Positions 17,246 to 37,420 of a stretch of DNA of 64,000 nt are shown here, in pieces. This DNA comes from Ruminiclostridium cellulolyticum H10. GTDB taxonomy: Bacteria; Bacillota; Clostridia; Acetivibrionales; DSM-1351. The position numbers were made by a program, and so were the translations under genes. The stretch's first letter is position 1, and each line of letters starts with the position of its first letter. The notes beneath the pieces were generated by a model. It saw only the letters and a program-made list of their open reading frames with translations. It was not told where the DNA came from and ran no database searches. The stretch lies in assembly GCF_000022065.1 (NCBI RefSeq), contig NC_011898.1:3785501-3849500 (forward strand), given 5' to 3'.

Positions 17246-18833
17246 CGTAATGATTGTTGATGATGAACCGGTAATAAAGCAAGGACTTTTATGCTTTGTC
17301 AATTGGGAGGCCCTTGATTGCAAAGTGATTTGTGATGCAGAAAACGGGATAGATGCAATGGAAAAACTGGCTGTCCATCCCGTGAATATCGTCCTTACAG
17401 ATATTAAAATGCCTGGAATGGATGGCTTGGAATTGTCAAAACTCATTTACGAAAAGTATCCTTCTATAAAAGTCATTATTCTTACGGCCTTTTCAGACTT
17501 TACCTATGCACAAGCTGCAATTAAATACAATGTATTGGATTTTGTCATCAAGACCAACCCAACTGAAAAAATTCCGGATGCCATTCGTAAAGCAAAGGAC
17601 CTAATTGCACAGGAGAAAGAAAAAGAAGAAAAGCTGAAGCTTATGGAAGAAAAGGCAATTCTGAGGCTGTCAGAGATCAAGGAAAATTTTTTCAAAGATG
17701 TGTTTAATGGAATCATAGTGAATGATACCCTTCTTCAAAGCAAGCTAATTGAGCTTGAAATAAGTATCGAAAACTATTTTGTTGTTTTATTTGACATTCA
17801 CAATGCTTCAAACGGAGATTCATCAATCAGTCCTGAGGACTATAATAAATTCATACATTCAGTGAACAATCTTCTTAATATGGCATTTAAGAGCTATCCT
17901 CACTATACTGTGGCAATGGACAGAAATCTCCTTGTGGCCGTAATTTCCTTCAAGAACTACAATGTCCCTGTATGTACTCAAACACTGCTGATGACCTGCA
18001 ATGAAATTCTATCCATGGCAGACAGCTTCATGCGGTTTACTATCAGTATAGGGTTGAGCCAAATGCACCAAAAGGTCCAGGCTCTATCTGTTGCCTACCA
18101 GGAGGCCAGGGAAGCATTGAGAGGTGGATTTTATAATAACAACCACGTTTCTGTTTTCGTGCCCCGTACTCCGCCCATACCATCCTTAATAAATCAACCC
18201 CACTATATTGCCGACAAAATTGTAGGCAGCCTCAAATTGGAAAACCCCTCAGAGGCAATTATAAGCCTTGAAAACCTATTGGAGGAGTACAGGAGTAATA
18301 AGGAACCTATTGAAAATATCAAGGTTTCGTGCATGCTCATCGCCTCTTATTGTTACAGGCTTGTTGCGAGCTATAAGCTGTTTGCTCCGGAACTTGCCGA
18401 TAGCGAGCCCGAGGTATACAAGCAGATACAGTCTAGCAGAAATATCCAAAATCTATTAAATATTTTAAGGCAGTTAGTAGAGAATGTTTCACAGGTTGTG
18501 GAAAATAACGGGAATAAATTCAGTTGCTTGGTAAAGGAAACCCAAAAGTATATTCGCGATAATTATAACAAGAATATCAGCCTCCAGTCCATAGCTGACC
18601 ACATCCATGTCAACAGCAGCTATCTTAGCCGGTTGTATAAAAAGGAAACAGGGGAATCCATCGTGGATGCCATTAATAAGTATCGGATTGAAAACGCCAA
18701 AAAGCTTTTAAAAGACCCTGTCTACAAAGTGTTTGAGGTAGCGTGTGCTGTAGGCATAGAAGACCCTGCCTACTTTACTCATGTTTTTACCAAATATACT
18801 GGAATGAGTCCTAAGGAATACAAGAGTAAATAA
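17238..18833 (+). CDS. response regulator with AraC-type DNA-binding domain, YesN-like
   Basis: A 531-residue regulator. The receiver domain (1-120) has the acidic pair in VDDEP, phospho-acceptor Asp in LTDIKMPGMDG and Lys in VIKTN. A middle region contains a degenerate GGDEF-like or linker part. The C-terminal ~100 residues form an AraC double helix-turn-helix (SLQSIADHIHVNSSYLSRL and later GIEDPAYFTHVFTKYTGMSP). It is translationally coupled to the kinase by an 8-nt overlap at ATGTATAA. The likely targets are the repeated TTGTAATATT sites. Confidence 0.88.
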   Translation: MYNVMIVDDEPVIKQGLLCFVNWEALDCKVICDAENGIDAMEKLAVHPVNIVLTDIKMPGMDGLELSKLIYEKYPSIKVIILTAFSDFTYAQAAIKYNVLDFVIKTNPTEKIPDAIRKAKDLIAQEKEKEEKLKLMEEKAILRLSEIKENFFKDVFNGIIVNDTLLQSKLIELEISIENYFVVLFDIHNASNGDSSISPEDYNKFIHSVNNLLNMAFKSYPHYTVAMDRNLLVAVISFKNYNVPVCTQTLLMTCNEILSMADSFMRFTISIGLSQMHQKVQALSVAYQEAREALRGGFYNNNHVSVFVPRTPPIPSLINQPHYIADKIVGSLKLENPSEAIISLENLLEEYRSNKEPIENIKVSCMLIASYCYRLVASYKLFAPELADSEPEVYKQIQSSRNIQNLLNILRQLVENVSQVVENNGNKFSCLVKETQKYIRDNYNKNISLQSIADHIHVNSSYLSRLYKKETGESIVDAINKYRIENAKKLLKDPVYKVFEVACAVGIEDPAYFTHVFTKYTGMSPKEYKSK

Positions 18834-18843: not shown

Positions 18844-19938
18844 TTACAAAGAAGCAATTTCTTGTATTCTCTCTATTATTGGCAAGTGTTGTGTACACAT
18901 TTTTTCACACTTGCCGCATTTTATACATCCTACTGCTGCTTTGGCTGATAGATGCCAATGCCTTCGTAAACGTTTTACGATAGAACGACCAAGAAGTTTA
19001 TCATTGTATGCATCCATAAATTTGGGAATCTCAATATTTTGTGGACAATGATTACAGTATCCGCATCCTGTACAAAGATCGTTCAAGATTATACCCTTGT
19101 TTTCATATTCTTTACATATCTCTGCCATTGGTTTTATTTCAAGATTTTCAATAGCTTTTACTGCATCATTAACATGCTTTTTTGTAGTAAATCCCGTCAT
19201 TGTTACCGATACTTCTTTCTGAGCAGCAACAAAACGCAGTCCTCCTTGTGCAACATTTAAGTTCGTACCTTCCGTCAGAAATTTAAAAACCCTCGGATTA
19301 TCAACGATAACTCCGCCTCCCAACGGATTCATAACCGAAATGCCCATACCGCTATTATAGGCTGCTTCAATGCCGCTTTTTCTGTAACGGTAGTTTAACG
19401 CATTGTAGCCGAGTGCTACTCCTTCGAAGAGTTTAGTATCCAATGCTCGTACCAAGTCGTCACCCTGCATATGCGAAGACATAACTATTCTCCTTATAAG
19501 TCCTTCTGACTTAGCTTGTTGGAAAAAACCAAACAGCTTCTCACAGTTTTCATAAAATGAGTTTAAATCCAACATACACCAAAGATAGTAAAAATCTAAA
19601 TAATCTACTTTCAAACGTTTTAACGATGTTTCAAGACGTCTACGAAATCCGTCTACCGTACATTCGTTTTGCAATGTGGCTAAATTTGTTTTTGAAGCTA
19701 CATAGTAGCTGCTACGAGGGAGTTGAGAAAGTGCCATGCCCGTTATAATTTCACTTTTGTCGTGACAGTAGAATGGTGCCGTATCGAAATAGTTAATTCC
19801 GTTCTCATGAGCATATAAAATTAATTCCACGTATTTTTCAAACTTGTTTTCTAAGATAACATGATCATCAAAACGCATACAGCCCATTCCAATAGCAGAC
19901 AATTCTACATCGGAGTTTCCATAGCGCTTATAAAGCAT
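18844..19938 (-). CDS. ctaK: aldo-keto reductase with C-terminal 4Fe-4S domain (closthioamide CtaK-like)
   Basis: A 364-residue protein. The AKR barrel has GMGCMRF near the start, YFDTAPFY (Asp and catalytic Tyr) and an HMQGDD segment. The C-terminus has two ferredoxin-like Cys clusters, CTGCGYCNHCPQ and CIKCGKCEKMC. In closthioamide biosynthesis an aldo-keto reductase is known to release a carrier-bound intermediate reductively. This is the last gene of the operon, 93 bp after the transglutaminase gene, so it probably makes the aldehyde later aminated to the diaminopropane end. The letter assignment rests on gene order as I recall it. Confidence 0.8.
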   Translation of the reverse strand: MLYKRYGNSDVELSAIGMGCMRFDDHVILENKFEKYVELILYAHENGINYFDTAPFYCHDKSEIITGMALSQLPRSSYYVASKTNLATLQNECTVDGFRRRLETSLKRLKVDYLDFYYLWCMLDLNSFYENCEKLFGFFQQAKSEGLIRRIVMSSHMQGDDLVRALDTKLFEGVALGYNALNYRYRKSGIEAAYNSGMGISVMNPLGGGVIVDNPRVFKFLTEGTNLNVAQGGLRFVAAQKEVSVTMTGFTTKKHVNDAVKAIENLEIKPMAEICKEYENKGIILNDLCTGCGYCNHCPQNIEIPKFMDAYNDKLLGRSIVKRLRRHWHLSAKAAVGCIKCGKCEKMCTQHLPIIERIQEIASL

Positions 19939-20031
19939 TTACAATCCTCCAACATTTCAATAAACATATATTAATAACATTGTTCAATATACATTTAGTA
20001 TTTTTAAATAACTTCCCTAGACATATCCTAT

Positions 20032-20967
20032 TTATCCGTTTGATGTAGATTCAAATAGCACTTTACTGTTATCCATAGTTCTAATAAGCGGAGCATTCAA
20101 AACACGGAATTTTCTGTTAGTTTCCCAAACGTTAACCAATTCTTTAAAGTTTTCATCCGGGTTAACCATCAATTCAGCCAATCCATCAATTTCTTTGGCT
20201 ATACCTTCGTCTATTTCTAATCTATTATTATCAATAAAGTATGGTATGAAATGGTAATTTACTTCATCATTCATCAATGCATGGAAATCGTACATCATTA
20301 TTTTTGCCAATGCCTTTAGCGATTTAGATCCATCCAGAAGTATATAGTTATTACCGTCCAGTTTACCGCTTCTAACATCTAACCAAAGTTGTGCAATCCA
20401 ATAAAACTGATCATCGGGAATATCATAAGTTGTAAACAACCCCTCGCACTCACGATACATTATTCCTTCCCCATCAAAATTAACCCATCTGTTTTCTTTT
20501 TCACTCCAGTATTGGTTAATCCAATGATCTACAGGCTTACCATGATATGCCCTTATTCCTGCCCTGCTACGGCAAGGAATACCTTTTGCTTTTAAAATTG
20601 CCCCTAATATAACAGTTATGTGTCTACAGGATATTACAATCCTCTCCTCAACTTGTCTGCCCGGGAAAAAACCTTTTTCGTTTAATCGAAATATTTCAGC
20701 TGTCATAGCAACAGCGGTTAACAATATATCGTCTTCACAACACATTCTGTACCAGGGAAACCTATCCATATCTCCGTATCGCAAATTTTCATTTTCCCCA
20801 CTGTTTCCGCATTTCAGTACAAACCTTTGTATATACTGTTGACCAACCAGTTCACTCAACTCTTTCAAATCATCCGGCAAGCTTTTAAAGTAGTCTTTGT
20901 AGACCCCTGCATATGTATATGTACTTGTTGACAGGTAATGATCCAAAACGGCTTTATCAATATTCAT
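20032..20967 (-). CDS. ctaJ: transglutaminase-like transthioamidating enzyme (CtaJ-like)
   Basis: About 311 residues with a transglutaminase-like core: Cys in VISCRHITVILGAIL, His in KPVDHWINQYW and Asp in RWVNFDGEG form the expected Cys-His-Asp triad. Closthioamide assembly uses a transthioamidating transglutaminase to join two polythioamide halves around diaminopropane. Context with AKR, ligase and carriers supports that role. Start set at the ATG after GGAGGGTTAATTG. Confidence 0.8.
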   Translation of the reverse strand: MNIDKAVLDHYLSTSTYTYAGVYKDYFKSLPDDLKELSELVGQQYIQRFVLKCGNSGENENLRYGDMDRFPWYRMCCEDDILLTAVAMTAEIFRLNEKGFFPGRQVEERIVISCRHITVILGAILKAKGIPCRSRAGIRAYHGKPVDHWINQYWSEKENRWVNFDGEGIMYRECEGLFTTYDIPDDQFYWIAQLWLDVRSGKLDGNNYILLDGSKSLKALAKIMMYDFHALMNDEVNYHFIPYFIDNNRLEIDEGIAKEIDGLAELMVNPDENFKELVNVWETNRKFRVLNAPLIRTMDNSKVLFESTSNG

Positions 20968-20992
20968 CAATTAACCCTCCATTTTAAATTAA

Positions 20993-22417
20993 CTATCTTT
21001 TTAATTTTCCAGTGCTTGTATATTCAAGTTTGTCTGTAAAGACAATATGTCTGGGAATTTTGTAATCGGATAAAAGTTCTTTGCAGCGGTTGAGCACCAA
21101 CTGCTCGGATATATCAGCACCATTTTCTACAACGACCTTTGCTGTTATAGTTTCACCGCTTAACGAATTTTTTTCTCCTTCTACCTTTACATCCAAAATT
21201 TTTTCAATCCCTTTTATTACTCTTTCTACTTCTTCCGGAGATACTTTCTTTCCGGCTATATTAATTACATTTTTCTTTCTGCCAGTTATAAAAAGAACAC
21301 CTTTATCATTGATATAGCCTAAATCTCCCGAGTAAAACCACCCGTCTTCAATATAAGCATCTGTTTTTGAAACCTCACTAACGCCGACATAACCAATAGT
21401 GCAATAAGGACTTCTTAAAACAATCTCTCCTATCTGATTATTTTCAAGTACTCTGTTTTCGCTATCAATTATTTTAATTTGGACCTCTGGCAAAGGCTTT
21501 CCAACTGCATCATATTCAAAAGATTTGGATATATCAATATTTATAGCAGTTGCACCTAGCTCTGAAGAACCATAGATTTGCGTTACCGGAATACCAAAGA
21601 GACTATATATTGCAGCATTTACATCTTTTTTTAATGGTGCACCTGCGGAAAGGAAGTAGCGTAGTTTATTTACCGGTACCTTTTTATTTACTTTGGTTAA
21701 AAGCTCATACTGAAATGGAACACCTACCACTACTGAACATTTTCCATTTTCAATAAAATTAATAACTTCCGTATGAGAAAAGTTTTTTTGTACTACCAGA
21801 GTTGCACCACTATAAATTGCTCCCAAAACATTTTCTAGACCAAATGCGTGCTGTGGTTGGACTAAACACAGAAAAGTATCATTACTACTTAAATTATATG
21901 TTCGTTGAAGCATTTTTGAATGCTCAAACAATATTCGGTTACTCCGTATAACCCCTTTGGGTTTGGATGTACTTCCTGAAGTATATATAATACACCCCTC
22001 GGAATTCATTTCGCAGCTTATCCTACTATCCTTTTCTTCTGTCAAGTTCTTTAAACTAAATTCTGTAATTGTAACATCATAGCTGCTTAAATCACTGCCC
22101 ATATACTGGTCTGTAAGAATAATTTTACTATCTATCTGCTCTAATATTTCAATGATTTCCTTTGGCTTTTTACTGGTTTCAATTAACACTGCACATGCAC
22201 CCAATGATATTATTGATAGCAAGCCAACAATAAAGTGAAGAGGGTCATTACATAAAATTGGTACTCTTTGATTTATCTTAATCCCTTTCTCTTTAAAATC
22301 AACTCGAGCTCTGGATATTAAATTCCATAGCTGGGCATATGAGTATTTATTTTCTCCGTCAATATAAAAAACCTGGGTACTTTGGCTATCCAATACTGAA
22401 TAGAAACAGTCGCTCAT
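20993..22417 (-). CDS. ctaI: AMP-forming acyl ligase (adenylation enzyme, CtaI-like)
   Basis: About 474 residues of the ANL superfamily. Visible motifs are the P-loop IIYTSGSTSKPKGVI, QIYGSSELGA, the YSGDLGY Asp motif and a C-terminal TGKLKR with the catalytic Lys. It most likely activates 4-hydroxybenzoate and loads it on a carrier protein as the starter unit (inference from the chorismate lyase and carriers in the operon). A longer frame to 22,465 overlaps the carrier gene but lacks a ribosome site; the ATG at 22,417 follows AAAGGAG. Confidence 0.82.
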   Translation of the reverse strand: MSDCFYSVLDSQSTQVFYIDGENKYSYAQLWNLISRARVDFKEKGIKINQRVPILCNDPLHFIVGLLSIISLGACAVLIETSKKPKEIIEILEQIDSKIILTDQYMGSDLSSYDVTITEFSLKNLTEEKDSRISCEMNSEGCIIYTSGSTSKPKGVIRSNRILFEHSKMLQRTYNLSSNDTFLCLVQPQHAFGLENVLGAIYSGATLVVQKNFSHTEVINFIENGKCSVVVGVPFQYELLTKVNKKVPVNKLRYFLSAGAPLKKDVNAAIYSLFGIPVTQIYGSSELGATAINIDISKSFEYDAVGKPLPEVQIKIIDSENRVLENNQIGEIVLRSPYCTIGYVGVSEVSKTDAYIEDGWFYSGDLGYINDKGVLFITGRKKNVINIAGKKVSPEEVERVIKGIEKILDVKVEGEKNSLSGETITAKVVVENGADISEQLVLNRCKELLSDYKIPRHIVFTDKLEYTSTGKLKR

Positions 22418-22448
22418 ATTAAATATGTTCTCCTTTCTAAATGTATGG

Positions 22449-22727
22449 TTATACTTCCAGCTCATTATATTGATTTGAAGTTCTTAATAAGTCCATATAT
22501 GCAATCATGGACCGTACCGTTTTAAACTCGTCAGCATCAATATTGACTTTACTGAATGTAAAATTGAAGGCCTGTTCCAAACTTACAATTAAGGTATAGA
22601 AGGAGATTGAATCTAAAAATAAATCCTCTTTTAAATCGCTATCCAGTGTAATCTCCATATCCTTCAGATTTTCGTAAAGCATTTCTCTTAATATGTTAAG
22701 AAATTTATCATAGTCAGAATAATTCAA
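22449..22727 (-). CDS. ctaH: acyl/peptidyl carrier protein (CtaH-like)
   Basis: About 92 residues with the phosphopantetheine site LFLDSISFYTL, where Ser is the attachment residue. It is acidic and helical as expected for a carrier. Start chosen as TTG at 22,725-22,727 because AGGAGG lies 7 nt upstream; the upstream ATG frame has no ribosome site. It is one of two carriers in the operon, so starter and extender intermediates may be held on different carriers. Confidence 0.85.
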   Translation of the reverse strand: MNYSDYDKFLNILREMLYENLKDMEITLDSDLKEDLFLDSISFYTLIVSLEQAFNFTFSKVNIDADEFKTVRSMIAYMDLLRTSNQYNELEV

Positions 22728-22805
22728 TTTATAACCTCCTCTTGCACTTTGATAAAACCTGTCCAGTATTAGGCATAACGACACTTATTTGACTATATGT
22801 TATTC

Positions 22806-23735
22806 TTATAATACCTTCAAAACCTCTTGTGCAAACTGCTCCTCAGAAGAAGCTACTTTACATATTAAATTCGATATTTCTTCGGTATTGTAACTACCTC
22901 TGCTATAATACTCAAATAGCTTTTTACGTATAAGTGCCCAATTATCCAGTAATTCTTGCAGATTCGGCGGCATCTCTAAACTGAACTTTTTTTGCAGGTT
23001 TATTAAATTTTGGTGTTGATAAACTACAGAATTCAAACAATTGTACCCTGTGAATGCCCATTTACGATCTTTGTTATCCAATTGTTTTTTCACAACCTGA
23101 CCGAATTGTGTAATCTTACCGAACATTTTTTCTTGTAAATACCTATTAAAACGATAGTATAACAATTCTTTAATATTACTTTTTTTTGTACCGTTACTGA
23201 ATATCTCGTACGAATTAAAGCTAATCTTACCTTGTTTCGTCATAGAGTTTCTTGATTTAATAAAATCCTCCATTGACATATTTTCTTCATGATGATAGTA
23301 CGGATCAATTATATGAACGCTGTTTTCGTTTATTTGTGTAAGAACAGCAAAATGCGGATCGTGTTCTCTGGTTACATTAAACCGACTTAATGATTTCCAA
23401 TTAAACGAATTCATATAGTAAAAATCCATTAAAACAATCTGAAGGCCATGCTTCTCTAAAACTTTCCTGCCTTCATCAATAGCCTGACTCTCTGAGGATA
23501 TATGTTCTAATACCTCAATGTTGGCAAAATTTCTTAAATCCTCATTTAAAACCACATCAACCGGGCCATCAGCGGCACCTGTATACCATTGATTTTTGTA
23601 AAATTGCTCTTCATCGAAAAAAAATGACCATTGAGACAAAATTATATTTTCGACTTGGTCAATATTTTTTTGCTTTGCATACTCTCCCAATGCTGACGAA
23701 TAACAATTATATCCTTGAAATGTATCCAGTAACAT
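22806..23735 (-). CDS. ctaG: BtrH-type papain-like amide synthase (CtaG-like)
   Basis: About 309 residues with the BtrH N-terminal fold (butirosin acyltransferase family). Cys in FQGYNCYSSALGEYA, His in REHDPHFAVLTQ and Asp in HIIDPYYHH form a papain-like triad. Family members transfer an acyl group from a carrier protein to an amine. In closthioamide a protease-like protein makes the amide bonds between carrier-bound beta-alanine units; same role inferred here. The ATG at 23,735 follows AGGTGAT; a GTG three codons upstream is possible. Confidence 0.82.
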   Translation of the reverse strand: MLLDTFQGYNCYSSALGEYAKQKNIDQVENIILSQWSFFFDEEQFYKNQWYTGAADGPVDVVLNEDLRNFANIEVLEHISSESQAIDEGRKVLEKHGLQIVLMDFYYMNSFNWKSLSRFNVTREHDPHFAVLTQINENSVHIIDPYYHHEENMSMEDFIKSRNSMTKQGKISFNSYEIFSNGTKKSNIKELLYYRFNRYLQEKMFGKITQFGQVVKKQLDNKDRKWAFTGYNCLNSVVYQHQNLINLQKKFSLEMPPNLQELLDNWALIRKKLFEYYSRGSYNTEEISNLICKVASSEEQFAQEVLKVL

Positions 23736-23783
23736 TCTTATCACCTGACCTCAGACTTTTATCACAATTGTAATCTGCTTTCT

Positions 23784-25031
23784 TTATAATTCAATTATCT
23801 CTTGACCATTTAGAATATTTTTAAATACGCCATGCTTTTTTAAATAATACTCATTGTTTTTGTAAATAAGTACTTCACAGGGTGCAGGATGCCCCAAAAA
23901 GCCTAACGGACTAAATGAGCTTCCATATGCCCCTGTGTTTTTAATACAGAGAATATCCCCTCTATCCGCCTTATTTAAGGTTACATTTCTACCTAGTATG
24001 TCTTCAGGGGTACAAAGTGGGCCAGCCACAGTTACCGTCTCTTCTTCATTTCTGTTATCCAATATTTTCATTAAGAAATTGCCTCGAATTTTCTTTTCTC
24101 GGAAGGTTGAAAGTGAATTATGGTTCATACCGCCGTCAGTTATCAAGAATACCTTGTCATGAAGTACTTTTCTGTATTGTACCTCGGTTAAAAATACCCC
24201 GCTTTCGGCAAGTAATAACCTTCCTGACTCGAAAACAAGTTTCTTGCCCTGAAAAAAGTCTTCATATTTGTGATACAATTTATTTATTTCTGCTCCAAAA
24301 TACTCAAAATCGTAAGGTTTATTCTTCCCATCGTAAGAAACCCCAAATCCACCTCCGAAATCCAGTACTTTGATATGTAAATCATTTTTTTCAATTAATT
24401 CTTTAAATATGTTTATTGTCTGTTCAAAATAGGCAAGTGTCGTATCCGGCTGAAATATCTGGGACCCTGCATATACATGAAAGCATACAAGATTGAGATT
24501 TTTTGAGGACTTAATATATTTGAGTATTTCGGGAATCTCATCAATATCTACACCAAATTGAGTTCCTGTACCCATCATGGAGATTGCAGGGTTTTTAGAT
24601 TCAATTTTAAAGTTTGGATGTATCCGTAAACCTACATCAACAATCTTGTTTTTCGCTTTAGCAATATCATCAATTAACATAATCTCCTTGTAGGATTCTG
24701 CATTGATGGCCAGTATTTTACTATCTACTGCAAATTCTAGTTCACTGTACGTTTTACCTGGCCCGGTAAAAAGAATTTTTTTGTTATCGAATCCGGCCTC
24801 CAGAGCCAAATGAAGTTCACCCGCTGAAGCTACTTCTATCCCACTAGAACACTTCTGTAAGATTCTACATATGCCATACGAAGGATTAGCTTTTACCGAA
24901 TAGAAAAATTCAAAGGCATCCGGCAACACTTTTTTCATGTTGAAATAAGTCTCTTCCAGCCTATCTCCATCAAAAAGGTACAGTGGAGTTTTATATTTAT
25001 GTGCAATATTAATTATTTGCCTATCATCCAC
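23784..25031 (-). CDS. ctaF: PLP-dependent decarboxylase, LysA/BtrK-like (CtaF-like)
   Basis: About 415 residues of the fold III (alanine-racemase type) decarboxylase family. The PLP Lys is in FFYSVKANPS; a Gly-rich phosphate site is at DFGGGFGVSYD; GPLCTPEDILG is the conserved C-terminal active-site loop. BtrK decarboxylates glutamyl carrier protein to the GABA thioester. By analogy this enzyme may convert carrier-bound aspartate to beta-alanyl carrier (inference). The GTG start has a GGAAGGG nine nt upstream; TTG three codons earlier is less well placed. Confidence 0.82.
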   Translation of the reverse strand: MDDRQIINIAHKYKTPLYLFDGDRLEETYFNMKKVLPDAFEFFYSVKANPSYGICRILQKCSSGIEVASAGELHLALEAGFDNKKILFTGPGKTYSELEFAVDSKILAINAESYKEIMLIDDIAKAKNKIVDVGLRIHPNFKIESKNPAISMMGTGTQFGVDIDEIPEILKYIKSSKNLNLVCFHVYAGSQIFQPDTTLAYFEQTINIFKELIEKNDLHIKVLDFGGGFGVSYDGKNKPYDFEYFGAEINKLYHKYEDFFQGKKLVFESGRLLLAESGVFLTEVQYRKVLHDKVFLITDGGMNHNSLSTFREKKIRGNFLMKILDNRNEEETVTVAGPLCTPEDILGRNVTLNKADRGDILCIKNTGAYGSSFSPLGFLGHPAPCEVLIYKNNEYYLKKHGVFKNILNGQEIIEL

Positions 25032-25058
25032 ATTTATCAACCCTTCCTGTAAAATTCT

Positions 25059-25310
25059 CTAAACAGATTTTACCGATACATATTTCCCAACTGTTTTTAG
25101 TATTTTGTCTATTGTTTCAAAATTAACTAATAACATATCCTCGTCATAAAACGAGAAATTAAATTCTTCTTCAATCTCTCCAATAATATAAACTACATTT
25201 ATGGAATCTAATCCCAATTCTGTAAGTTTGTCATTGTCTCCTATTGAATCCAGATCTTCCCTTTTAATGTAAGTATGAGAACATATAATCTCCTTGATTT
25301 TTTCTTTCAT
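25059..25310 (-). CDS. ctaE: acyl/peptidyl carrier protein (CtaE-like)
   Basis: An 83-residue carrier protein with phosphopantetheine site LGLDSINVVYI. It is acidic and helical. It lies between the ATP-grasp ligase and the decarboxylase, the order expected if this carrier holds the amino-acid extender unit. AGGAGG precedes the ATG. Confidence 0.88.
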   Translation of the reverse strand: MKEKIKEIICSHTYIKREDLDSIGDNDKLTELGLDSINVVYIIGEIEEEFNFSFYDEDMLLVNFETIDKILKTVGKYVSVKSV

Positions 25311-25339
25311 AGTAAATACCTCCTATAAAATATTTGTAT

Positions 25340-26653
25340 TTAATTGATTACTTTAATCAAATTATCCATTTCTTCATAACGACTATCATCTTTGTCGTTT
25401 TTATCATAAACATTTGCCAGATATATTCTATTATCATATTGTCCGTCTGAATCTTTATCTATGGACAGACAACTAGAATTTAAAATTATAATTCCTTTTT
25501 TACTTTCATTGCAATAAAGCAATTTGTTCTCACGTAAAATCTCTTTTAACCTAACATAATTCAGACTGTTATTGGTTTTAACATCATAGCTTCTGATAAG
25601 AATTCTCTTACTATGATTTCTAAAATAGTTAAGAAAAGGAATATAGAATGTTGATTGGTTGAACCGTGCATTGAACTCTATAGCGGGAAATATTGTCCCA
25701 TCCTTATCAATAATTGAGTCTATGCCAATAATTCCACTAAACCCCATCTGGTATAATTTAGTTCCTAATTTTTGGGCACAGTCATTGTAGTAATCCTCTT
25801 GCTGCTTTGTTAATTTCGGTGGGTATAAAGAACCCTTGTATGCTGTTACCGAAATGATTTGCTCTGTAATTGCAATTAACTTGACCTCTCCCTCTTTTGA
25901 TATTTCGATTTGATAATTGATATCCCGTTTATCATCAATCCAGCCTTCGATTATTACTTCGAAATTCTTATTCTCATTATTAAATCTCATCATTTTGAGG
26001 AAACTATAGAATTGTTTTTCATCCTTTATAAAGAAAACACCTTTTCCGGCAGAATTATAGGGTTCCTTTAGTACAAATCTCATGTACCCTTTGCCCTTTA
26101 GTTTATTATACTGCTCCTCCAATTCCTCTTTGGAAGAACATATTCCACCCTCAATACAGGATAAACCTATTTCTTCTACTATTCTTCGAGCATTGGCTTT
26201 ATTATTCAATTTTGTAATCAGGTCTGACGAAGACCCATAAATAGCAAAGTTACAATACTCGCTTATTTTTTCATCATGGCTACTCAATATATATGGAACA
26301 TATAATACCTTTTGTCCTGCAAATCTCGTTTTGAGATCTTGCAAGATATCTTCGTTCTCAACAATAATTTTAGAAATTGGTAAATCCAAATCAGGAATCA
26401 CGACGGTTTTGGGCTTACTTATACCAAAAACTTCCATATCTTTTAAAAACTCAGGATCTGATTCTTTCACAACGTAAACGGTATCTTCGGCATTAGAGAT
26501 AAAAAAAAGTAATTCTGCCTGCCTATTCAGGATTTTTTGTTCTTTAAGATTATTAACTTTTCTTACGCCAGTCTTCTTGTCTTCCCATTCATGCTCGATT
26601 CCTGAATTATAAATTAATATTTTTTGGTTACCTGAATCTTTAATTATACTCAT
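25340..26653 (-). CDS. ctaD: ATP-grasp ligase (CtaD-like)
   Basis: A 437-residue ATP-grasp family protein. The central part has GYMRFVLKEPYNSAGKGVFFIKD (nucleotide-binding Lys and Gly loop) and the Mg-binding end FPAIEFNARFNQSTF. Like BtrJ in butirosin assembly, such ligases load an amino acid on a carrier protein through an acyl phosphate. Its start overlaps the preceding gene by 4 nt (ATGA). It probably loads aspartate or beta-alanine on the adjacent carrier. Confidence 0.83.
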   Translation of the reverse strand: MSIIKDSGNQKILIYNSGIEHEWEDKKTGVRKVNNLKEQKILNRQAELLFFISNAEDTVYVVKESDPEFLKDMEVFGISKPKTVVIPDLDLPISKIIVENEDILQDLKTRFAGQKVLYVPYILSSHDEKISEYCNFAIYGSSSDLITKLNNKANARRIVEEIGLSCIEGGICSSKEELEEQYNKLKGKGYMRFVLKEPYNSAGKGVFFIKDEKQFYSFLKMMRFNNENKNFEVIIEGWIDDKRDINYQIEISKEGEVKLIAITEQIISVTAYKGSLYPPKLTKQQEDYYNDCAQKLGTKLYQMGFSGIIGIDSIIDKDGTIFPAIEFNARFNQSTFYIPFLNYFRNHSKRILIRSYDVKTNNSLNYVRLKEILRENKLLYCNESKKGIIILNSSCLSIDKDSDGQYDNRIYLANVYDKNDKDDSRYEEMDNLIKVIN

Positions 26654-27717
26654 TTTTCACCTACCCAAAATAGCTTCTCTTTGGATGTAGATAGTAAATC
26701 GATTATTTCCTGTATCTCTCCTTCATCGTCTACTCTACTTTCAATAATTTTTATAACATCCTCTTTTGATAATGAGCCGCGTCGGATTTGATCACTGAAT
26801 TCTCTTTCTACATATGTAGTTGAACCGTTTTTAGTGGCGATATATTCCATAAGTTTGCCGAGTTTACATCCTGACGAGATATATTTCTTGGTAAAATGGG
26901 TATCCGCTACCCATCCTAATTCCTTACTAAGTAACTCGACAATTTCGATAGGCTTGTACTCAAAGTATTGCAAGGGATAAATGAACCTGTCAAAATTTAA
27001 AGTCTCAAGATTATCATCAAATAGATAAGAGATAGACTCCTTGCTCTTTTCCTTTAAAAGATCTAATGCCTTTTTATAATTTTGAACTGAATAATTCTGT
27101 ATGTAACGCCTACGAATATCGAAACTTTTATCTTTACCTTCTTCATCTCCCAAAGCCCTTATCTGTTCCAGTGTATGGCCGGAAAATACAGCCGTAACAT
27201 TCAGCATCTTTGCTACTTTTATAGAAATTGTTTTCAGGAGTCTCCCGCAGAAGAAACATAATTGGCTGCAATCCTGCAACTTTAAAGTATCTTCAGTCAG
27301 TAAGAAATTATAGTACTCCCTCATATCTTCAAAAGGCAGGCGATAAATGAAATGTGATATTCCCAGTTTCTTAGCTATATCGTATGAATTGTCAAATGTA
27401 CTTTGATATTCGAATCCATTATCGATTGTTAATCCGACAATATTTAGCTTGTAGACTTTTGATAGTATGTAAGCAACATATATACTGTCTTTTCCCCCGC
27501 TTAACATTACCAATCCGTCAAAAGTTCCTTTTGCTCTTCGGACCTCTTCGATTTTTTCTTGGAGTTCCTGCTCCTTTTCCATCCAGTCAATGGATTGAGC
27601 TTTTAATTCATCATTGTAACATTCCAAGCACAGACCATTCTTAGCCATTGATTTTCCTTCTGAATCAACCGGAATCTGTTTAAGACACTTTTTACACTTT
27701 ACCTCACATTCAATCAT
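26650..27717 (-). CDS. ctaC: AANH/PP-loop thionation enzyme (CtaC-like)
   Basis: A 355-residue protein. The N-terminal CKKC..CLEC pattern suggests a zinc site (residues ~8-36). The PP-loop is LSGGKDSIYVAYIL near residue 70. A second Cys pair lies at QLCFFCGRLL, with another Cys at SSGCKLGKL. The family adenylates a carbonyl and replaces oxygen with nitrogen or sulfur. In closthioamide biosynthesis an alpha-hydrolase-type enzyme installs the thioamides. The sulfur donor cannot be told from sequence. Confidence 0.83.
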   Translation of the reverse strand: MIECEVKCKKCLKQIPVDSEGKSMAKNGLCLECYNDELKAQSIDWMEKEQELQEKIEEVRRAKGTFDGLVMLSGGKDSIYVAYILSKVYKLNIVGLTIDNGFEYQSTFDNSYDIAKKLGISHFIYRLPFEDMREYYNFLLTEDTLKLQDCSQLCFFCGRLLKTISIKVAKMLNVTAVFSGHTLEQIRALGDEEGKDKSFDIRRRYIQNYSVQNYKKALDLLKEKSKESISYLFDDNLETLNFDRFIYPLQYFEYKPIEIVELLSKELGWVADTHFTKKYISSGCKLGKLMEYIATKNGSTTYVEREFSDQIRRGSLSKEDVIKIIESRVDDEGEIQEIIDLLSTSKEKLFWVGEK

Positions 27718-27780
27718 AATTATAAAACTCCTTCCTTCATATGATTTATTATAGGGTTTTTGTCTGATATGAAAAAACTT

Positions 27781-29091
27781 TTAGATACCACTACTATTGC
27801 TTATAGCTGTTTTAACTATTTTGACTATGTTGTCCAAGTCGCTTTCCGTTGCTATGTATTGTGGAAAAATCAGAATTGATGATGTAATGTCTTTTGTATA
27901 GGAGATTCCTGCAAAACAGCCTAAAGAATAAATGGTTGATATAACTTTAATAAGCTGCTCATGACTTATAGGATTGTTTGTTTCTCTATCCGCTAAATCA
28001 ATGGCTGCCATTAACCCGTGTATGCGTATTTCAAAAACCATACTCAGATTAGAAAGGTCATCATTCAATATTTTTTTGAAATAAGTACTTTTTGCGTTTA
28101 CAACTTCTAAAATATTATCTCTTTCCATTTTGTCTATTGTCGCCAATGCAGCAGCCAAACAAATAGGATTAGCATTTTGTGTAGATAAATGGAATAATAT
28201 CTGATTTTCCTTTAAAAAAGCACTTTCTATTTTTTCAGAAATACATACTGCACCCAGCGGCAGATAGCCATTATTTATACCTTTTGACATAGTAATAATG
28301 TCCGGTTTTAAATCAAATTTTTGAAATCTGAACATTGTGCCTGTTCTTCCGAAACCCGTAGCAACTTCATCACAAACAAAGAGAACATTATTTTCTCTGC
28401 AAAAACTGTTTATCCTGGACAGATACTCTTCAAATAATGGAATGACTCCACCAGAAGCTAATATCGGTTCTACAATAATAGCACATAGTTTATCTTTGTT
28501 ATTTTGTAAAGTTTCCTCTAGTTTTTGCATAACCTTATTTTTTTCGTCTATTGTCATTTCTTCTGTTTTACATCTTCTTGAAAATGGTAGAACCAATTTA
28601 ATAAAGCCATCAACCATTGGTCCATAACCCTGTTTTTCATTTTCATCATAGAAAGACGCTGACATTGATCCATAATAACTTCCATGATAGGATTCTGAAA
28701 TTACTGCTATATGATATTGCTTTTTGCCTATCAGGTTGTTATATTTACGCGAAATCTTGATGGCAGCTTCTATGGCTTCTGAACCGGAACAAGTAAAAAG
28801 TACTTTTGTTATTTCATCGTGTGTTATACTACATAGTTTATCTGCAAGTTCAGATGCTTTTGGGTTCCCCAGAGTGATAGGATTAATATACGGTAGTTCC
28901 TCAATCTGTGTCTTAATAGCTTTCTTAATATCGTTATCACTATAACCATAATTCATATTCCACAGACCGCTATACGCATCTTGAAACCTTCTACCGGAGT
29001 CATCGTATAGAAATATCCCCTCGCCTTTTACTATATTAATTACGTTCTCACCATCAGCCCTGTTGAATGGTCTCCAGTATGTGCTCCCCAT
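27781..29091 (-). CDS. ctaB: class III PLP aminotransferase (CtaB-like)
   Basis: A 436-residue fold type I, class III aminotransferase. Motifs include CSGSEAIEAAIKISRKY, SYHGSYYGS, LFVCDEVATGFGRTGT and the PLP Lys in ITMSKGINNGYLPLGAV. It probably aminates the aldehyde released by the aldo-keto reductase to give the diaminopropane-terminated half (inference from published pathway logic). An alternative is DABA-type amine supply. The symbol rests on gene order. Confidence 0.8.
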   Translation of the reverse strand: MGSTYWRPFNRADGENVINIVKGEGIFLYDDSGRRFQDAYSGLWNMNYGYSDNDIKKAIKTQIEELPYINPITLGNPKASELADKLCSITHDEITKVLFTCSGSEAIEAAIKISRKYNNLIGKKQYHIAVISESYHGSYYGSMSASFYDENEKQGYGPMVDGFIKLVLPFSRRCKTEEMTIDEKNKVMQKLEETLQNNKDKLCAIIVEPILASGGVIPLFEEYLSRINSFCRENNVLFVCDEVATGFGRTGTMFRFQKFDLKPDIITMSKGINNGYLPLGAVCISEKIESAFLKENQILFHLSTQNANPICLAAALATIDKMERDNILEVVNAKSTYFKKILNDDLSNLSMVFEIRIHGLMAAIDLADRETNNPISHEQLIKVISTIYSLGCFAGISYTKDITSSILIFPQYIATESDLDNIVKIVKTAISNSSGI

Positions 29092-29137
29092 TATTTTTCC
29101 GTCCCCTTTCTTAAAACCCAGAATCTTGCAATTGATA

Positions 29138-29707
29138 CTAGTTCCAAAAAAACTTTGCTATTTCCTTAATATTAAAGACCTCCAGCAAACAAAAGCAACA
29201 ATTATCGTTAACATAAATCAAATACTTTTTAAACGGATATTCCAATAATGAAAATCTCTGTTCACCAAAAATGGCATTAAGTTCATTTTTGTTTAAATAA
29301 CCACTCCAGAGTATTTCTCTTTTTGTTTCGTTATCTTTTATTATTTTGCCTAAAGGAGTTTTACTACGGAGTAGAGCGTTTTTAATCTCATCAGAAATGT
29401 TGTCGAATGAAGCTATTACAATATTGTCAGAGAAGATATTGCCATGACTATGAAGTGATACTGTACGTTTTAGATATTTTTCAGACTTTTTAAGAGGTGA
29501 AATGTAATCATAATAATTTTCTGAAAGATCCTTTTCCTCAGTTACCTTCTGACTTGTGACATTAATCTCTACTTCTCTCCCTGTCATTATCTCCAGCAAC
29601 CTAGTGGTAGAACTCTTGGACACTAGTAGGATATCCGCCAACTTTCTTTCAGTCTGAGTTATTTCAGTCAGCAGCATCCGGTTTGTGGAATTATTCATCT
29701 GCATCAT
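29138..29707 (-). CDS. ctaA: chorismate pyruvate-lyase family protein (CtaA-like)
   Basis: A 189-residue protein resembling the DUF98/Rv2949c-type chorismate lyases: a TERKLADILLVSKSSTTRLLE region, then conserved Arg in LKRTVSL and the SKTPLGKIIKD segment. The enzyme makes 4-hydroxybenzoate from chorismate, the aromatic starter of closthioamide. First gene of the operon, ~95 nt after the predicted transcription start. ATG codons at 29,707 and 29,704 are both possible behind GAGGGG. Confidence 0.82.
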   Translation of the reverse strand: MMQMNNSTNRMLLTEITQTERKLADILLVSKSSTTRLLEIMTGREVEINVTSQKVTEEKDLSENYYDYISPLKKSEKYLKRTVSLHSHGNIFSDNIVIASFDNISDEIKNALLRSKTPLGKIIKDNETKREILWSGYLNKNELNAIFGEQRFSLLEYPFKKYLIYVNDNCCFCLLEVFNIKEIAKFFWN

Positions 29708-29809
29708 ATTACCCCTCTGTTTTGCCTGTATTTTTTATAAAATAATCAAAACTAATATAAAAAACTTAGTGTATATTTAATTTTTGTAATTAATTTACAT
29801 CTAATGCAA

Positions 29810-29838
29810 ATTATAAAATAATTGGATTATCCTGTCAA
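29810..29838 (-). promoter_or_regulatory. consensus promoter of the cta-type operon
   Basis: The minus strand has TTGACA (29,833-29,838), a 17-nt spacer and TATAAT (29,810-29,815), a perfect sigma-A match. The -35 lies inside an interrupted palindrome CCTGTTGACAGG that could be an operator. Confidence 0.8.
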
Positions 29839-30009: not shown

Positions 30010-30759
30010 CTATTGGAGAGTTTCTTTTTTCAGTTTCCACATTGCAAGCATAAAACTCCCAAGGCACATTACGGTAAAGAGTATAATTACGGGGAGTATG
30101 TCTGCTATTAATAGCTCCCCTCCCAATATTATTCTTCTGAGAGAATTGATTATATGAGTAAATGGATTTAGATTTACAGCAATGGCGAGTCCGCCGGATA
30201 AACTTTCAGGTGGAAAAAGGGCAGTACTTAAGAAGAAAATAGGAAGTACAATTGCATTCATTATTGTTTCATAGATGACTTCGTTGGGAAGTAAAAGGCT
30301 TATAAAATATGCGAGGCCCGACATGAAAAAAGCTGTTAAAAAGATAAGCAATATTATTAGTAAAACTCCTAAAAACCCTGAGCCTACTCTTACAGAAAAC
30401 AACAAACTTATAACAAATAGAATAGTTACCTCTATAAAAGATACCAGTATTGCCTCCAGCATCTGTCCCAGTACTACATCTTTTCTTTTAACAGGTGCAA
30501 TCAGAATCCTGTAAAAGCTTCCATTAGATTTCATAATAAAATTAATTATTCCTCCGCTGCTACAGGCAGAAAAGGTGACCAAAACCACGATACCGGGTAA
30601 TATGAAAGCAGTATAATTGCCGATGCCCGTTTTTTTCATCGCCTGTCCTGCAACAGCACTATACATTACAAGCCAAATCAGCGGCTGCAATATAGTAACT
30701 ATAATGGAAAGAGGATTTTGAAAGCGCCACTTTATATTTCTCCACAGAATGTTTAGCAC
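30010..30759 (-). CDS. ABC-2 type exporter permease
   Basis: A 249-residue membrane protein with about six membrane segments, of the DrrB/ABC-2 family. It overlaps the ATPase gene by 7 nt, so the two form one exporter. Position next to an antibiotic pathway suggests drug efflux, probably of the thioamide product (inference). Confidence 0.85.
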   Translation of the reverse strand: MLNILWRNIKWRFQNPLSIIVTILQPLIWLVMYSAVAGQAMKKTGIGNYTAFILPGIVVLVTFSACSSGGIINFIMKSNGSFYRILIAPVKRKDVVLGQMLEAILVSFIEVTILFVISLLFSVRVGSGFLGVLLIILLIFLTAFFMSGLAYFISLLLPNEVIYETIMNAIVLPIFFLSTALFPPESLSGGLAIAVNLNPFTHIINSLRRIILGGELLIADILPVIILFTVMCLGSFMLAMWKLKKETLQ

Positions 30760-31715
30760 ACCCGTTCCTCCTCCCTTTGCTCTCTTGAACTTATTAACGA
30801 CAAAAATACGTCTTCCAAACTAGGCTCTACTATCTCGATAGCATTTAACTCAGCATCTTTATCCAACAACCATTTATTGACTGTTTTAAAATCTTTTCTG
30901 CTGTCATCAACCCCTGCTAAAATGAATCTATCTTCTATTTTAGTAAACCTGGTAAGTCCAGAATCATCAAGAGCTTTTTTATATTTTTTTGTCTCTTCAA
31001 CACTGCTAAATCCTATTCGGAGCATATTTTGCCTGGTATGATTTCGCAAATCCGCTGGTGTCCCCTGAGCTATTTCCTTCCCATCTTTCATAATACAAAT
31101 CGTATCGCTCAGCTGATCAGCTTCTTCGAGATAGTGTGTTGTAAGAAAAATAGTTGTTCCGTAGTCTTCTCGAATTTTCAGCAACATTTTCCACATTGCT
31201 TTTCTGGATTCAACATCCATAGCAACTGTCGGCTCATCTAAAAAAAGAATTTTAGGAGCCGAAATCATATTCATCGCAATATCCAATCTCCGCTTTACAC
31301 CTCCAGAGTATGAAGATGTGGGGTATTTAAGATATCCGGATAGTTCAAAATTGTCAATCAGAGATGCGATTCTTTCTTTAGCAAGGTGCTTATCTACTTT
31401 GTATAGCTTACTTTGAAACATCATATTTTCCATAAGAGACAAATGAGCATCAATTGAAACATGCTGTGCAACACATGCAATCTGCGTACGAACCCAGCCC
31501 GGTTCCTTGCATAAATCTTTCCCTAGCACAGTTATCTTTCCTGATGTTGGTTCGTAATAAGTGGTTAGAATATTAATTAATGAGGATTTCCCCGCACCAT
31601 TTGGTCCTAATAAGGAAAAAATTTCCCCCTGATTTACTTTGAGACTCAAGTTATCAAGTGCTTTGACACCATTTTTGTACTGCTTATTTAAGTTTACAAC
31701 CTCTATTGCAAGCAT
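30753..31715 (-). CDS. ABC exporter ATPase, DrrA-like
   Basis: A 320-residue ABC ATPase: Walker A GPNGAGKSSL, signature SSYSGGVKRRLDIA, Walker B ILFLDEPTVAMD and H-loop LTTHYLEEA. A ~100-residue C-terminal extension is typical of DrrA-type drug exporters. It is 6 bp after the GyrI-like gene and coupled to the permease. Confidence 0.9.
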   Translation of the reverse strand: MLAIEVVNLNKQYKNGVKALDNLSLKVNQGEIFSLLGPNGAGKSSLINILTTYYEPTSGKITVLGKDLCKEPGWVRTQIACVAQHVSIDAHLSLMENMMFQSKLYKVDKHLAKERIASLIDNFELSGYLKYPTSSYSGGVKRRLDIAMNMISAPKILFLDEPTVAMDVESRKAMWKMLLKIREDYGTTIFLTTHYLEEADQLSDTICIMKDGKEIAQGTPADLRNHTRQNMLRIGFSSVEETKKYKKALDDSGLTRFTKIEDRFILAGVDDSRKDFKTVNKWLLDKDAELNAIEIVEPSLEDVFLSLISSREQREEERVC

Positions 31716-31720
31716 TCGAA

Positions 31721-32176
31721 CTACTCCTCCTTAATGGGAAACAGAACTTCAGTTATATACTTATTAGGATTACCTTTTAGTATCATTCCCGGTCCTTTTA
31801 TAAAAACTTCCCGGAAAGGAGGCTGTAAAATTAGATTTTTTTCACGTGCATAACTTTCAATTGCCTCGTATACAGGCTGCATTGTTTCATACGGTCCAAT
31901 ATGCGTAGCACTTATTGCTTTTATTCTTGGCATATCTTTTACTGCGATACCATTTCCAACGGGGTTCTCCGCTGTAGGAACACATAGATCCATCTCGCCT
32001 GTCATTGTTTGCTGATCCATTACATAATAGCATATAAAAGGTGCTCCATTTGCTTTTCCCTGTATTGACTTGAAAACATTAGGCATGACTTTCGATGCTC
32101 CTGCCGCAGGCCCCTTATAGTGCATAAATGCTACTCTAATCGGCTCAACGTCCTTAACTTCAATTTCATAATTCAT
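31721..32176 (-). CDS. GyrI-like effector-binding protein
   Basis: A 151-residue stand-alone GyrI-like domain; typical pieces are [13 protein letters not shown], then CVPTAENP and [19 protein letters not shown]. The fold binds small hydrophobic molecules; E. coli GyrI (SbmC) protects gyrase from inhibitors. Closthioamide targets gyrase, so either drug sequestration or gyrase protection is an attractive role, but the fold is also common in general multidrug loci. Confidence 0.8.
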
Positions 32177-32197
32177 AGATTCTTCCTCCTAAATAAA

Positions 32198-33061
32198 TTA
32201 TTTTTTTGCTGTTTTAACTGCAATCCAGACCTCAGAATGCCCCCCTATCATCTTTTTCTCGCTGATAGGATAGACCTCTATATCTGGTAATTCAGCATAA
32301 TCATACCCGGAAAACGGAAGCCATTCCGTAAGAAATCTTCTAAATATTGTTTGGACAGACTCCGGGAAATGCCCATCACATTCAAAAATGACCCAGGTAG
32401 CTGCCGGAATTTCATATTCTACTAAATCTTCCGGGACAGGTTTATCTGTAGAAGTAGCTATATAATAATAAATTTCCTTTGGATTTTCATATGCGGTAAT
32501 ACCCAATATGCCATGAGGATCTTTATTTGTTAATTCAATAATTTTAGAAAAAACACTGCTTTTTAATGTGTTATCCCAAAATGCAGGAACAATCTCAAAA
32601 TTCTGTTCAGGCTCCTCTTCTAGCGGAACCCTTACACCAACAATTCTAATGCGGTCTCTCGTTTCAATGCGATACCTCATTCTTTCACCCCCAGTTATAT
32701 TAATTGTAAAGCTGATGGGAGTATAAGCATTTAGTTTAGTTCCTTTCACACGTGCAACAGTCGGAGCAACTCCATGAACACTATGAAAAGCACGATTAAA
32801 TGCCGCTGCTGTAGAATATCCATACTTTACAGCGATTTCCATAACTCTCGCACCACTTAACTGAAGTTCAAAAGCAGCTTTTGTCATTCTCCTGCGACGG
32901 ATATATTCAGATAGCGGAATACCGGCTATATAAGAAAATATCCGCTGAAAATAGTATGTTGAACAGCAGGCAATACCTGCGACCTCATCATAAGATATAT
33001 CATTAGTCAAGTTGTTTTCTATATAATCAACAGCCCGACTCATTTGATTTAACCATTCCAT
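32198..33061 (-). CDS. AraC family regulator with C-terminal GyrI-like domain
   Basis: About 287 residues. The N-terminus (1-110) has an AraC double helix-turn-helix (SYDEVAGIACCSTYYFQRIF and YGYSTAAAFNRAFHSVHGVAP). The C-terminal ~160 residues are a GyrI-like ligand pocket (RIRIVGVRVPLEEE, YEIPAATWVIFECDG). Rob-type proteins of this layout activate efflux genes when a drug binds. It heads the leftward exporter operon. Start set at the ATG with an upstream AGAGG; a longer frame to 33,094 lacks one. Confidence 0.85.
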   Translation of the reverse strand: MEWLNQMSRAVDYIENNLTNDISYDEVAGIACCSTYYFQRIFSYIAGIPLSEYIRRRRMTKAAFELQLSGARVMEIAVKYGYSTAAAFNRAFHSVHGVAPTVARVKGTKLNAYTPISFTINITGGERMRYRIETRDRIRIVGVRVPLEEEPEQNFEIVPAFWDNTLKSSVFSKIIELTNKDPHGILGITAYENPKEIYYYIATSTDKPVPEDLVEYEIPAATWVIFECDGHFPESVQTIFRRFLTEWLPFSGYDYAELPDIEVYPISEKKMIGGHSEVWIAVKTAKK

Positions 33062-33188
33062 ATTTTCCAATCCTCTTAAGGCGTATTCTAACATAATCTG
33101 TAAATTATATCTTTTCTTTTGATGTCCTGTTTTGTAAACAAATAATTTAGTATTTAGGCTCTAGCATACCGATAAAAAATTATTCCGC

Positions 33189-36170: not shown

Positions 36171-36586
36171 TTTTTTAACTCACTCTCCTGTATAACTTAT
36201 TGTGTAAATTAATAATTTCTATGTTATTACTTTTATGTATAATATTATCAAATAAATAAATTTACTTCTATACATTTCGTACTTTTAATGAATTCGATTA
36301 AACTATTTCCATAAGTCTGAAAAACGGTGAATTTGTTAGATACTATAAAAAAAGCTCACTGAGTTGAGCACCTGTAGCATGCATAGTCTTTAAACAATTT
36401 TCAAAGCCAAATTTATTTCACTGTGTTCAGCGACTTCTACTGCCTTTGATACTGCTCATGATATATTGTTGTTGTAAACCTCTCTATTTTCTCTTCTTAA
36501 TTATTTGATATGATAAAAACCTTTGCAGGCTCTGCCCGGCAGAGTGCCGTATATTATGAATTGAGGTCAGTACTTGAATCCGAGTT
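36171..36586. other. gene-poor stretch with a terminator and a gene remnant
   Basis: No intact gene is seen. On the minus strand a short frame ending KAVEVAEHSEINLALKIV (around 36,395-36,465) stops just before a terminator, which looks like the 3' end of a lost gene. A small GC-rich hairpin CTCTGCC/GGCAGAG lies near 36,531-36,547. Confidence 0.4.
36347..36369 (-). terminator. terminator hairpin with T-run
   Basis: Minus-strand GCTCA pairs with TGAGC around a 6-nt loop, followed by seven T residues. It appears to belong to the gene remnant just upstream on that strand. Confidence 0.7.
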
Positions 36587-36643
36587 AGAGCGCACCCATG
36601 GTAAGGGACATATTCACAAGTTTAATTCTATTAAAAGTCAAAA
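36587..36643. repeat. tRNA-Thr-derived repeat, copy A
   Basis: This ~57-bp segment matches 37,643-37,700 with few changes. It begins AGAGCGCACCCATGGTAAGGG, which resembles the D-arm and anticodon arm of tRNA-Thr(GGU) on the plus strand. Copy A is cut from its terminator by the IS200-type element. Confidence 0.7.
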
Positions 36644-37302: not shown

Positions 37303-37420
37303 ATTTTTTTGTATAACTACTGTCGCGCACCCGCATAGCGGGTGGTTTATTATTTCGTATGTCTCCGTTTCTCTGTTGAGAAACTCCAACATACTCAACA
37401 GGCTAAAGCCCATAATTTAA

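Follow-up and report, generated by a model that had tools for sequence, protein, structure and literature searches.

The DNA analysed here, a 64,000-nucleotide stretch of the Ruminiclostridium cellulolyticum H10 genome (hereafter the window; C1:3785501-3849500 of a single contig of 4,068,724 bases), carries on its minus strand, between 18844 and 29707, eleven open reading frames (ORFs) that are almost certainly the published closthioamide (cta) gene cluster of this species (Table 1). They are spaced by -17 to +93 bp, with two overlaps, and encode, in the order of transcription, a chorismate lyase, a class-III aminotransferase, an AANH (PP-loop) protein, an ATP-grasp ligase, a carrier protein, a pyridoxal phosphate (PLP)-dependent decarboxylase, a C39/BtrH-like protein, a second carrier, an AMP-forming ligase, a transglutaminase-like protein and an aldo-keto reductase. 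Free-standing carriers, an ATP-grasp ligase and a BtrH-like transferase are thus all present without a condensation domain of the non-ribosomal peptide synthetase (NRPS) type. Closthioamide is a polythioamide gyrase inhibitor that is made without an NRPS, and the recognition of its cluster from raw sequence can be regarded as a sound positive control.

Table 1. Features of the cta region, with window coordinates, strand and principal evidence
Feature	Description	Position	Strand	Evidence
ctaK	aldo-keto reductase, C-terminal 4Fe-4S dicluster motif	18844..19938	-	PF00248 5.4e-27, PF13534 4.9e-06
ctaJ	transglutaminase-like	20032..20970	-	PF01841 2.9e-04, 21.5 bits (cutoff 23)
ctaI	AMP-forming acyl ligase for 4-hydroxybenzoate (substrate predicted)	20993..22465	-	PF00501 7.6e-53
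ctaH	second carrier protein (hydroxybenzoyl carrier)	22449..22784	-	PF00550 1.2e-09
ctaG	papain/C39-like peptidyl transferase, BtrH N-terminal-like	22806..23744	-	PDB 9quz_A 310/312; weak PF03412
ctaF	PLP decarboxylase (Orn/DAP decarboxylase family)	23784..25040	-	PF02784 1.2e-42, PF00278 5.9e-17
ctaE	carrier protein, site of chain thionation	25059..25310	-	PF00550 9e-11; DS motif at 35
ctaD	ATP-grasp ligase, predicted beta-alanine loading on CtaE	25340..26653	-	PF02222 6.6e-09
ctaC	AANH thioamide synthetase, 355 aa	26650..27717	-	D77, S78, C154, C157, C284
ctaB	class-III aminotransferase, 436 aa	27781..29091	-	PF00202 9.8e-86
ctaA	chorismate lyase (4-hydroxybenzoate starter), 189 aa	29138..29707	-	PF01947 3.1e-10
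Promoter ahead of ctaA	TTGACA-17-TATAAT, exact sigma-70-type	29810..29838	-	consensus match only
Probable terminator	hairpin + T-run between exporter genes and ctaA	29950..30010	-	-18.7 kcal/mol, z -3.68
ABC permease	ABC-2 type, probable exporter	30010..30759	-	PF01061 5.6e-28
ABC ATPase	DrrA1-3-like C-terminus	30753..31715	-	PF00005 2.2e-31, PF13732 6.6e-07
ctaZ	GyrI-like binding protein	31721..32176	-	PDB 7zhd_A 151/151 identical; PF06445
AraC regulator	Cass2/GyrI-like effector domain	32198..33094	-	PF14526 1.7e-20, PF12833 3.8e-16
UvrA paralogue	993 aa; putative cluster member	33189..36170	-	PF17755 8.5e-22, PF00005 2.9e-20

The original prediction, made from the DNA letters, had read eleven consecutive genes as a closthioamide-type pathway with a chorismate lyase for the starter, a ligase and two carriers, BtrJ/BtrK/BtrH-like extender enzymes, a PP-loop thionation enzyme and a pair formed by a transglutaminase and an aldo-keto reductase. 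Each of these was recovered in the domain analysis (Table 1), the transglutaminase with its triad C115/H149/D166 intact in the alignment, and the predicted lack of a condensation domain and a thioesterase was borne out by the Pfam models Condensation and Thioesterase, which matched none of the eleven cluster proteins at E<=0.001. Its inventory was correct for the genes that it listed but left out the class-III aminotransferase; likewise unlisted, beyond its coordinates, were the ABC pair and the GyrI-like, AraC and UvrA-like genes (30010-36170). Its endpoint, 29838, is the start of the exact ctaA promoter. The ATP-grasp loading of a carrier, the PLP-dependent decarboxylation and the BtrH-like acyl or peptidyl transfer are alike in cta and in the side-chain enzymes of butirosin (BtrJ, BtrK, BtrH and BtrI). 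Butirosin receives a single side chain, whereas in closthioamide the beta-alanine extension is repeated and the chain is thionated.

The identification of the cluster is carried by the following evidence. In kind and order, all eleven genes agree with the roles of CtaA-K given in the excerpt of PMC6772006. CtaC is described there as Ccel_3258 of R. cellulolyticum, for which the mutants D77A, S78A, C154A, C157A and C284A were made, and these same five positions in the AANH protein of the window hold D, S, C, C and C. CtaG and the solved protein 9quz_A are identical at 310 of the 312 residues; to judge from this identity, PDB 9quz would be CtaG of R. cellulolyticum. Since the only two mismatches are the second and third residues of the longest ORF, translation of ctaG probably begins with the ATG of codon 4 (23735). 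The GyrI-like neighbour is identical throughout to 7zhd_A; we take the PDB entries 7zhd and 7zhe to be CtaZ and have therefore named the gene ctaZ, with a presumed role in self-resistance. Eight of the eleven proteins have a Pfam family, and the Pfam matches of CtaC, CtaG and CtaJ are weak and below the cutoff; the assignments of CtaC and CtaG are nevertheless secure because of the residues in the former and the PDB identity in the latter. In a search of the PDB no close solved relative was found for CtaJ, CtaK, CtaA or the AraC protein.

Several points weigh against this identification. The equation of 9quz with CtaG is itself drawn from the identity, and the whole-protein identity among CtaA-K is that of CtaG. 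In addition, the five CtaC residues by themselves are not specific, as they are also kept by L002 and L003, two other AANH proteins of this genome (29% and 23% identical to CtaC, respectively); what gives the residue test its weight is the exact agreement in numbering and not any rarity of the residues. The original prediction had set an identity above about 95% as the mark of the known cluster, and such an identity was found for CtaG, the one protein of the eleven that could be compared. One might still suppose that the window holds a close variant cluster of another Ruminiclostridium, yielding a different polythioamide. The diamine and coupling steps are proposals in the excerpt of PMC6772006, so that sequence alone leaves the end product movable. 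We nevertheless regard such a variant as highly improbable in view of the matches of CtaG and the GyrI-like protein and the exact CtaC numbering, and also because the sole other CtaC homologue among the ten other family genomes (E<=1e-30) is 39% identical and adjoins NRPS genes. Gene content, the order A-K and the CtaC numbering are alike in the window and the excerpted account (PMC6772006), and no difference was found. The original prediction also asked if the product of this copy is the same, and identity supplies the answer: because the copy is identified as the published cluster, the expected product is closthioamide. The cluster being already known, any fresh lead would be limited to the adjacent UvrA paralogue and is modest; in the window this gene is seen upstream of the cluster, and the excerpt of PMC6772006 makes no mention of it.

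Following the scheme in the excerpt of PMC6772006, CtaA would provide 4-hydroxybenzoate, which CtaI would load on CtaH. CtaD would load beta-alanine, supplied by CtaF (possibly from aspartate) or by primary metabolism, on CtaE, where a tri-beta-alanine chain would be built. CtaG would then move the hydroxybenzoyl group onto this chain, and CtaC would exchange oxygen for sulphur in the three amides while the chain is bound to CtaE. Finally, two trithioamide chains would be joined via 1,3-diaminopropane, the diamine being made by CtaK, CtaB and CtaF and the coupling performed by CtaJ, and the upstream genes (the ABC pair, the GyrI-like and AraC genes and perhaps the UvrA paralogue) would provide export and self-protection. 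Chain assembly by CtaD and CtaG and resistance by CtaZ have been demonstrated elsewhere. The reaction of CtaC has been shown and depends on the CtaE-bound substrate, ATP and an Fe-S cluster; gyrase is the target of closthioamide (excerpt of PMC6772006). In the same excerpt CtaK, CtaB and CtaF are proposed to make diaminopropane and CtaJ to couple it, and the terminal beta-alanine is suggested to remain on CtaE as the priming residue. What has been inferred, by these authors or in the present analysis, comprises the diaminopropane route, the coupling by CtaJ and a possible role for the UvrA paralogue.

In this respect it may be asked whether diaminopropane is made in place, with CtaK and CtaB turning the CtaE-bound terminal beta-alanyl thioester via the aldehyde into the amine and CtaJ adding the second thioacyl chain. 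In line with such a route, the top NCBIfam model for CtaB is a daptide-type aminotransferase (350.7 bits), and enzymes of this type act on the carbonyl at a peptide end. CtaF would be needed only once, and the retention of the priming beta-alanine on CtaE, as suggested in the excerpt of PMC6772006, also fits. We consider the route unlikely all the same, as the daptide score does not reach the cutoff of the model (450) and the next model, bioA, follows at 309. Moreover, aldo-keto reductases are not ordinarily known to reduce thioesters, and the published proposal of free diaminopropane from aspartate stands.

The cta genes are preceded by a gap of 302 bp, which contains both the promoter and the hairpin of Table 1. 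The promoter is the sole 12/12 match within the 64 kb, against 0.09 expected per window in Markov simulations; at the looser level of 9/12, the 77 observed matches are at chance level (77.2 expected). A folding energy as low as that of the hairpin was reached by one of 200 shuffled sequences, and the hairpin is absent from the list of the terminator scan. Further upstream the ABC pair and the GyrI-like, AraC and UvrA-like genes follow one another on the same strand with spacings of -7, 5, 21 and 94 bp. The terminator-like hairpin and the exact promoter ahead of ctaA make these genes look like a transcription unit that is probably separate from ctaA-K.

The uvrA-like gene belongs to a family that is found in all 11 family genomes (matches at E<=1e-100). 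With the full-length copy of each of these genomes, which was taken as the housekeeping one, its product shares 45-47% identity, with the other full-length UvrA of its own genome 46%, and with a fusion protein of genome G008 48%. The closest family relative (59%) is the C-terminal UvrA part of a 1297-aa fusion, encoded on the R. sufflavum contig that also bears a CtaC homologue. Fusions of an N-terminal transglutaminase domain with UvrA were found in three genomes, R. sufflavum, G008 and G785 (loci L019:14308-18201, L021:8209-12150 and L022:9667-13578). In a maximum-likelihood tree with midpoint root, the R. sufflavum fusion is the partner of the window protein (100/100), and the pair joins the other two fusions (99/97) in a four-member group apart from the housekeeping copies; the branches of the four are long. 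Judged by its sequence, the gene of the window is not of the housekeeping type. The 19 rows of this tree comprise 16 of the 23 loci of the family search and the three longer fusion loci; L019 and L021 took the place of L031 and L032, and L038, L045, L046, L048 and L049 were omitted, the last two of which share their stop type with the retained L047 and L051.

The fusions sit among NRPS genes (R. sufflavum and G785) or polyketide synthase (PKS) genes (G008, where an AMP-binding region and two ABC exporters also surround the fusion), and a MATE exporter gene adjoins the R. sufflavum fusion. The catalytic Cys of the fused transglutaminase is kept in G008 and replaced by Ser in R. sufflavum and by Ile in G785, where the His is also changed to Arg. 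By eye, the alignment shows two Walker A and two signature motifs in the window protein, which also has CxxC pairs and the UvrB-binding region (PF17760 at 159-237, 39.4 bits, cutoff 23.3). Its Pfam matches (Table 1) show the ABC ATPase sites and the insertion/DNA-binding domain that are expected of UvrA-like self-resistance proteins. In actinobacterial clusters for DNA intercalators, UvrA-like genes are known markers of self-resistance (excerpt of PMC10413001). As in the cases of Ecm16 and DrrC (excerpts of PMC10192343 and PMC10413001), a UvrA paralogue with conserved ATPase and signature motifs lies near an antibiotic cluster, but the window protein keeps the UvrB-binding region and the CxxC pairs, whereas Ecm16 lacks the UvrB-binding domain and zinc module 1 (excerpt of PMC10192343). 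The UvrB-binding region rules out an assignment to the Ecm16/DrrC type. A literature search found no work combining UvrA, transglutaminase and biosynthetic gene cluster, and CtaZ was not mentioned in the matches to our queries, each of which demanded at least two terms. Upstream of the uvrA-like gene the window shows a cluster of several G+C-rich hairpins (36537-37344).

What, then, might the UvrA paralogue do beside the cta genes? It may be a hitherto overlooked component of the closthioamide system that protects the DNA or the gyrase of the producer alongside CtaZ and the exporter, and that belongs to a clostridial branch travelling with NRPS/PKS and thioamide clusters. We hold this only tentatively, because the case for linking the UvrA branch with thioamides has been weakened: the link is firm in one relative only, R. 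sufflavum. On the fusion contig of G785, an NRPS some 30 kb away contains an AANH domain that is 29% identical to CtaC (3.0e-19) and no closer to it than L003 of the cta genome (23%, 3.0e-18); the better CtaC match of G785 (35%) is on a different contig. In G008 (92% complete, 360 contigs) no CtaC was found at E<=1e-5. The other reading, to which we give about an even chance, is that the UvrA paralogue and the AraC gene are chance neighbours unrelated to closthioamide. UvrA-type genes are, after all, present throughout the family, and the GC content of 30010-33094 (0.376) and of the uvrA gene (0.377) resembles that of the window (0.376), against 0.340 for ctaA-K. The retention of the UvrB-binding region, unlike in Ecm16, and the fact that closthioamide targets gyrase rather than DNA itself point the same way. 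Less easily explained by chance are the shared strand and the spacing of 94 bp between uvrA and the AraC gene, and the location of its nearest relative on the contig with the only other CtaC homologue of the genus (E<=1e-30). If the protective role were true, a UvrA branch marking NRPS/PKS and thioamide clusters in clostridia would offer a handle for new antibiotics from anaerobes, and it would have to be asked what need a gyrase-inhibitor producer has for a UvrA paralogue in which the UvrB-binding region is retained.

CtaJ matches the N-terminal domain of the three fusions, of which the uvrA-like gene matches the C-terminal part. The reading of CtaJ as a split-off half of such a fusion was nevertheless rejected, as in the transglutaminase tree (12 rows) free-standing proteins of genomes G307 and G108 are its partners (100/100) and the fused domains lie elsewhere. 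The latter do not form one group themselves: the tree implies two changes, and a single change was found in 5% of 200 bootstrap trees. This tree does not include L013 and L015, which are short, the duplicate loci L009, L010 and L016, or the lower-scoring piece of L058 (57 bits). As CtaJ falls outside the fused domains, the link between CtaJ and UvrA is one at the family level, and joint working is not claimed. The full Cys-His-Asp triad of CtaJ would be compatible with catalysis.

Most relatives of CtaJ are unfused. Within the order, the CtaJ query gave 10 matches in 9 of 58 genomes (E<=1e-10), three of them in frames of ~1300 aa; within the class, an alignment of the CtaJ family gave eight matches in 6 of 391 genomes (E<=1e-20), one in a frame of ~1300 aa. 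On plasmids 18 records were found, all below 60% identity, of which 11 are from Rhizobium. No CtaC was detected at E<=1e-5 in G307 (82% complete) or G108, so that relatives of CtaJ occur without CtaC, and a scan of 10 ORFs near the G307 and G108 relatives yielded no carrier, adenylating enzyme or NRPS. The G307 relative (51-59% identical) is in two pieces around an assembly gap (L064:5441-6624 and 8744-9781), ~2 kb from a gene for DAHP (3-deoxy-D-arabino-heptulosonate 7-phosphate) synthase of the aromatic pathway, and an AraC regulator is encoded on the same contig. At four loci (L011, L012, L013 and L014) free-standing CtaJ relatives adjoin an AraC regulator that resembles the one of the window (tblastn 1e-28 to 1e-32).

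The cta cluster is rare in the genomes searched. CtaC was found at E<=1e-30 in two of the 11 family genomes, its own included, the other being that of R. sufflavum, where the homologue adjoins NRPS enzymes with condensation domains. CtaG was present in 1 of 391 class genomes (E<=1e-10), which is its own, and CtaC in 2 of 391 class genomes (E<=1e-45) and 1 of 398 phylum genomes (E<=1e-40), both counts including its own; these class and phylum scans are samples, and their strict cutoffs hide distant homologues. One hundred CtaC homologues have already been analysed, with a small number of closthioamide-like clusters (excerpt of PMC6772006), so that the rarity seen here reflects strict cutoffs and sampling. 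A scan of named genomes gave no match with CtaC as single query and seven loci with a two-sequence CtaC alignment; at these loci (stretches of 8.7-21 kb) CtaG, CtaD, CtaF and CtaJ had no match at E<=1e-3, and CtaG had none on plasmids. A wider spread of the whole cluster was rejected on these CtaG and CtaC counts.

The clusters that combine NRPS and AANH genes in R. sufflavum (L007, L018 and L019) and G785 (L068) resemble cta in that their AANH sequences, 39% identical to CtaC in R. sufflavum and 29% in G785 (contig C5), have the equivalents of D77, S78, C154, C157 and C284. Unlike cta, they have condensation and adenylation enzymes, and no CtaG, CtaD or CtaF was found in these stretches at E<=1e-3. 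All eight aligned CtaC homologues, including L002 and L003, keep the five key residues, which therefore do not decide on thioamide function. In G785 the AANH region with these equivalents lies in the middle of a 3503-aa NRPS (L068:5192-15703), and the last adenylation module of this NRPS encloses a nitroreductase domain. The cta genome itself contains NRPS/PKS genes with CtaC-like AANH sequences at two loci (L070 and L071; C1:1164001-1180000 and 1205001-1222000). One of these AANH sequences, free-standing and 29% identical to CtaC, keeps D77/S78 and the three Fe-S cysteines, is without the N-terminal CxxC pairs, and adjoins a radical SAM gene and an NRPS gene. The other, a partial and weak CtaC match (6.5e-6), lies within an NRPS that also bears a radical SAM domain.

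Elsewhere in the window, the protein encoded at 7863-14990 (2375 aa) looks secreted and has long near-repeats in its interior and, judged by eye, S-layer-like repeats at the C-terminus; it adjoins a sensor/regulator pair at 15443-18833.

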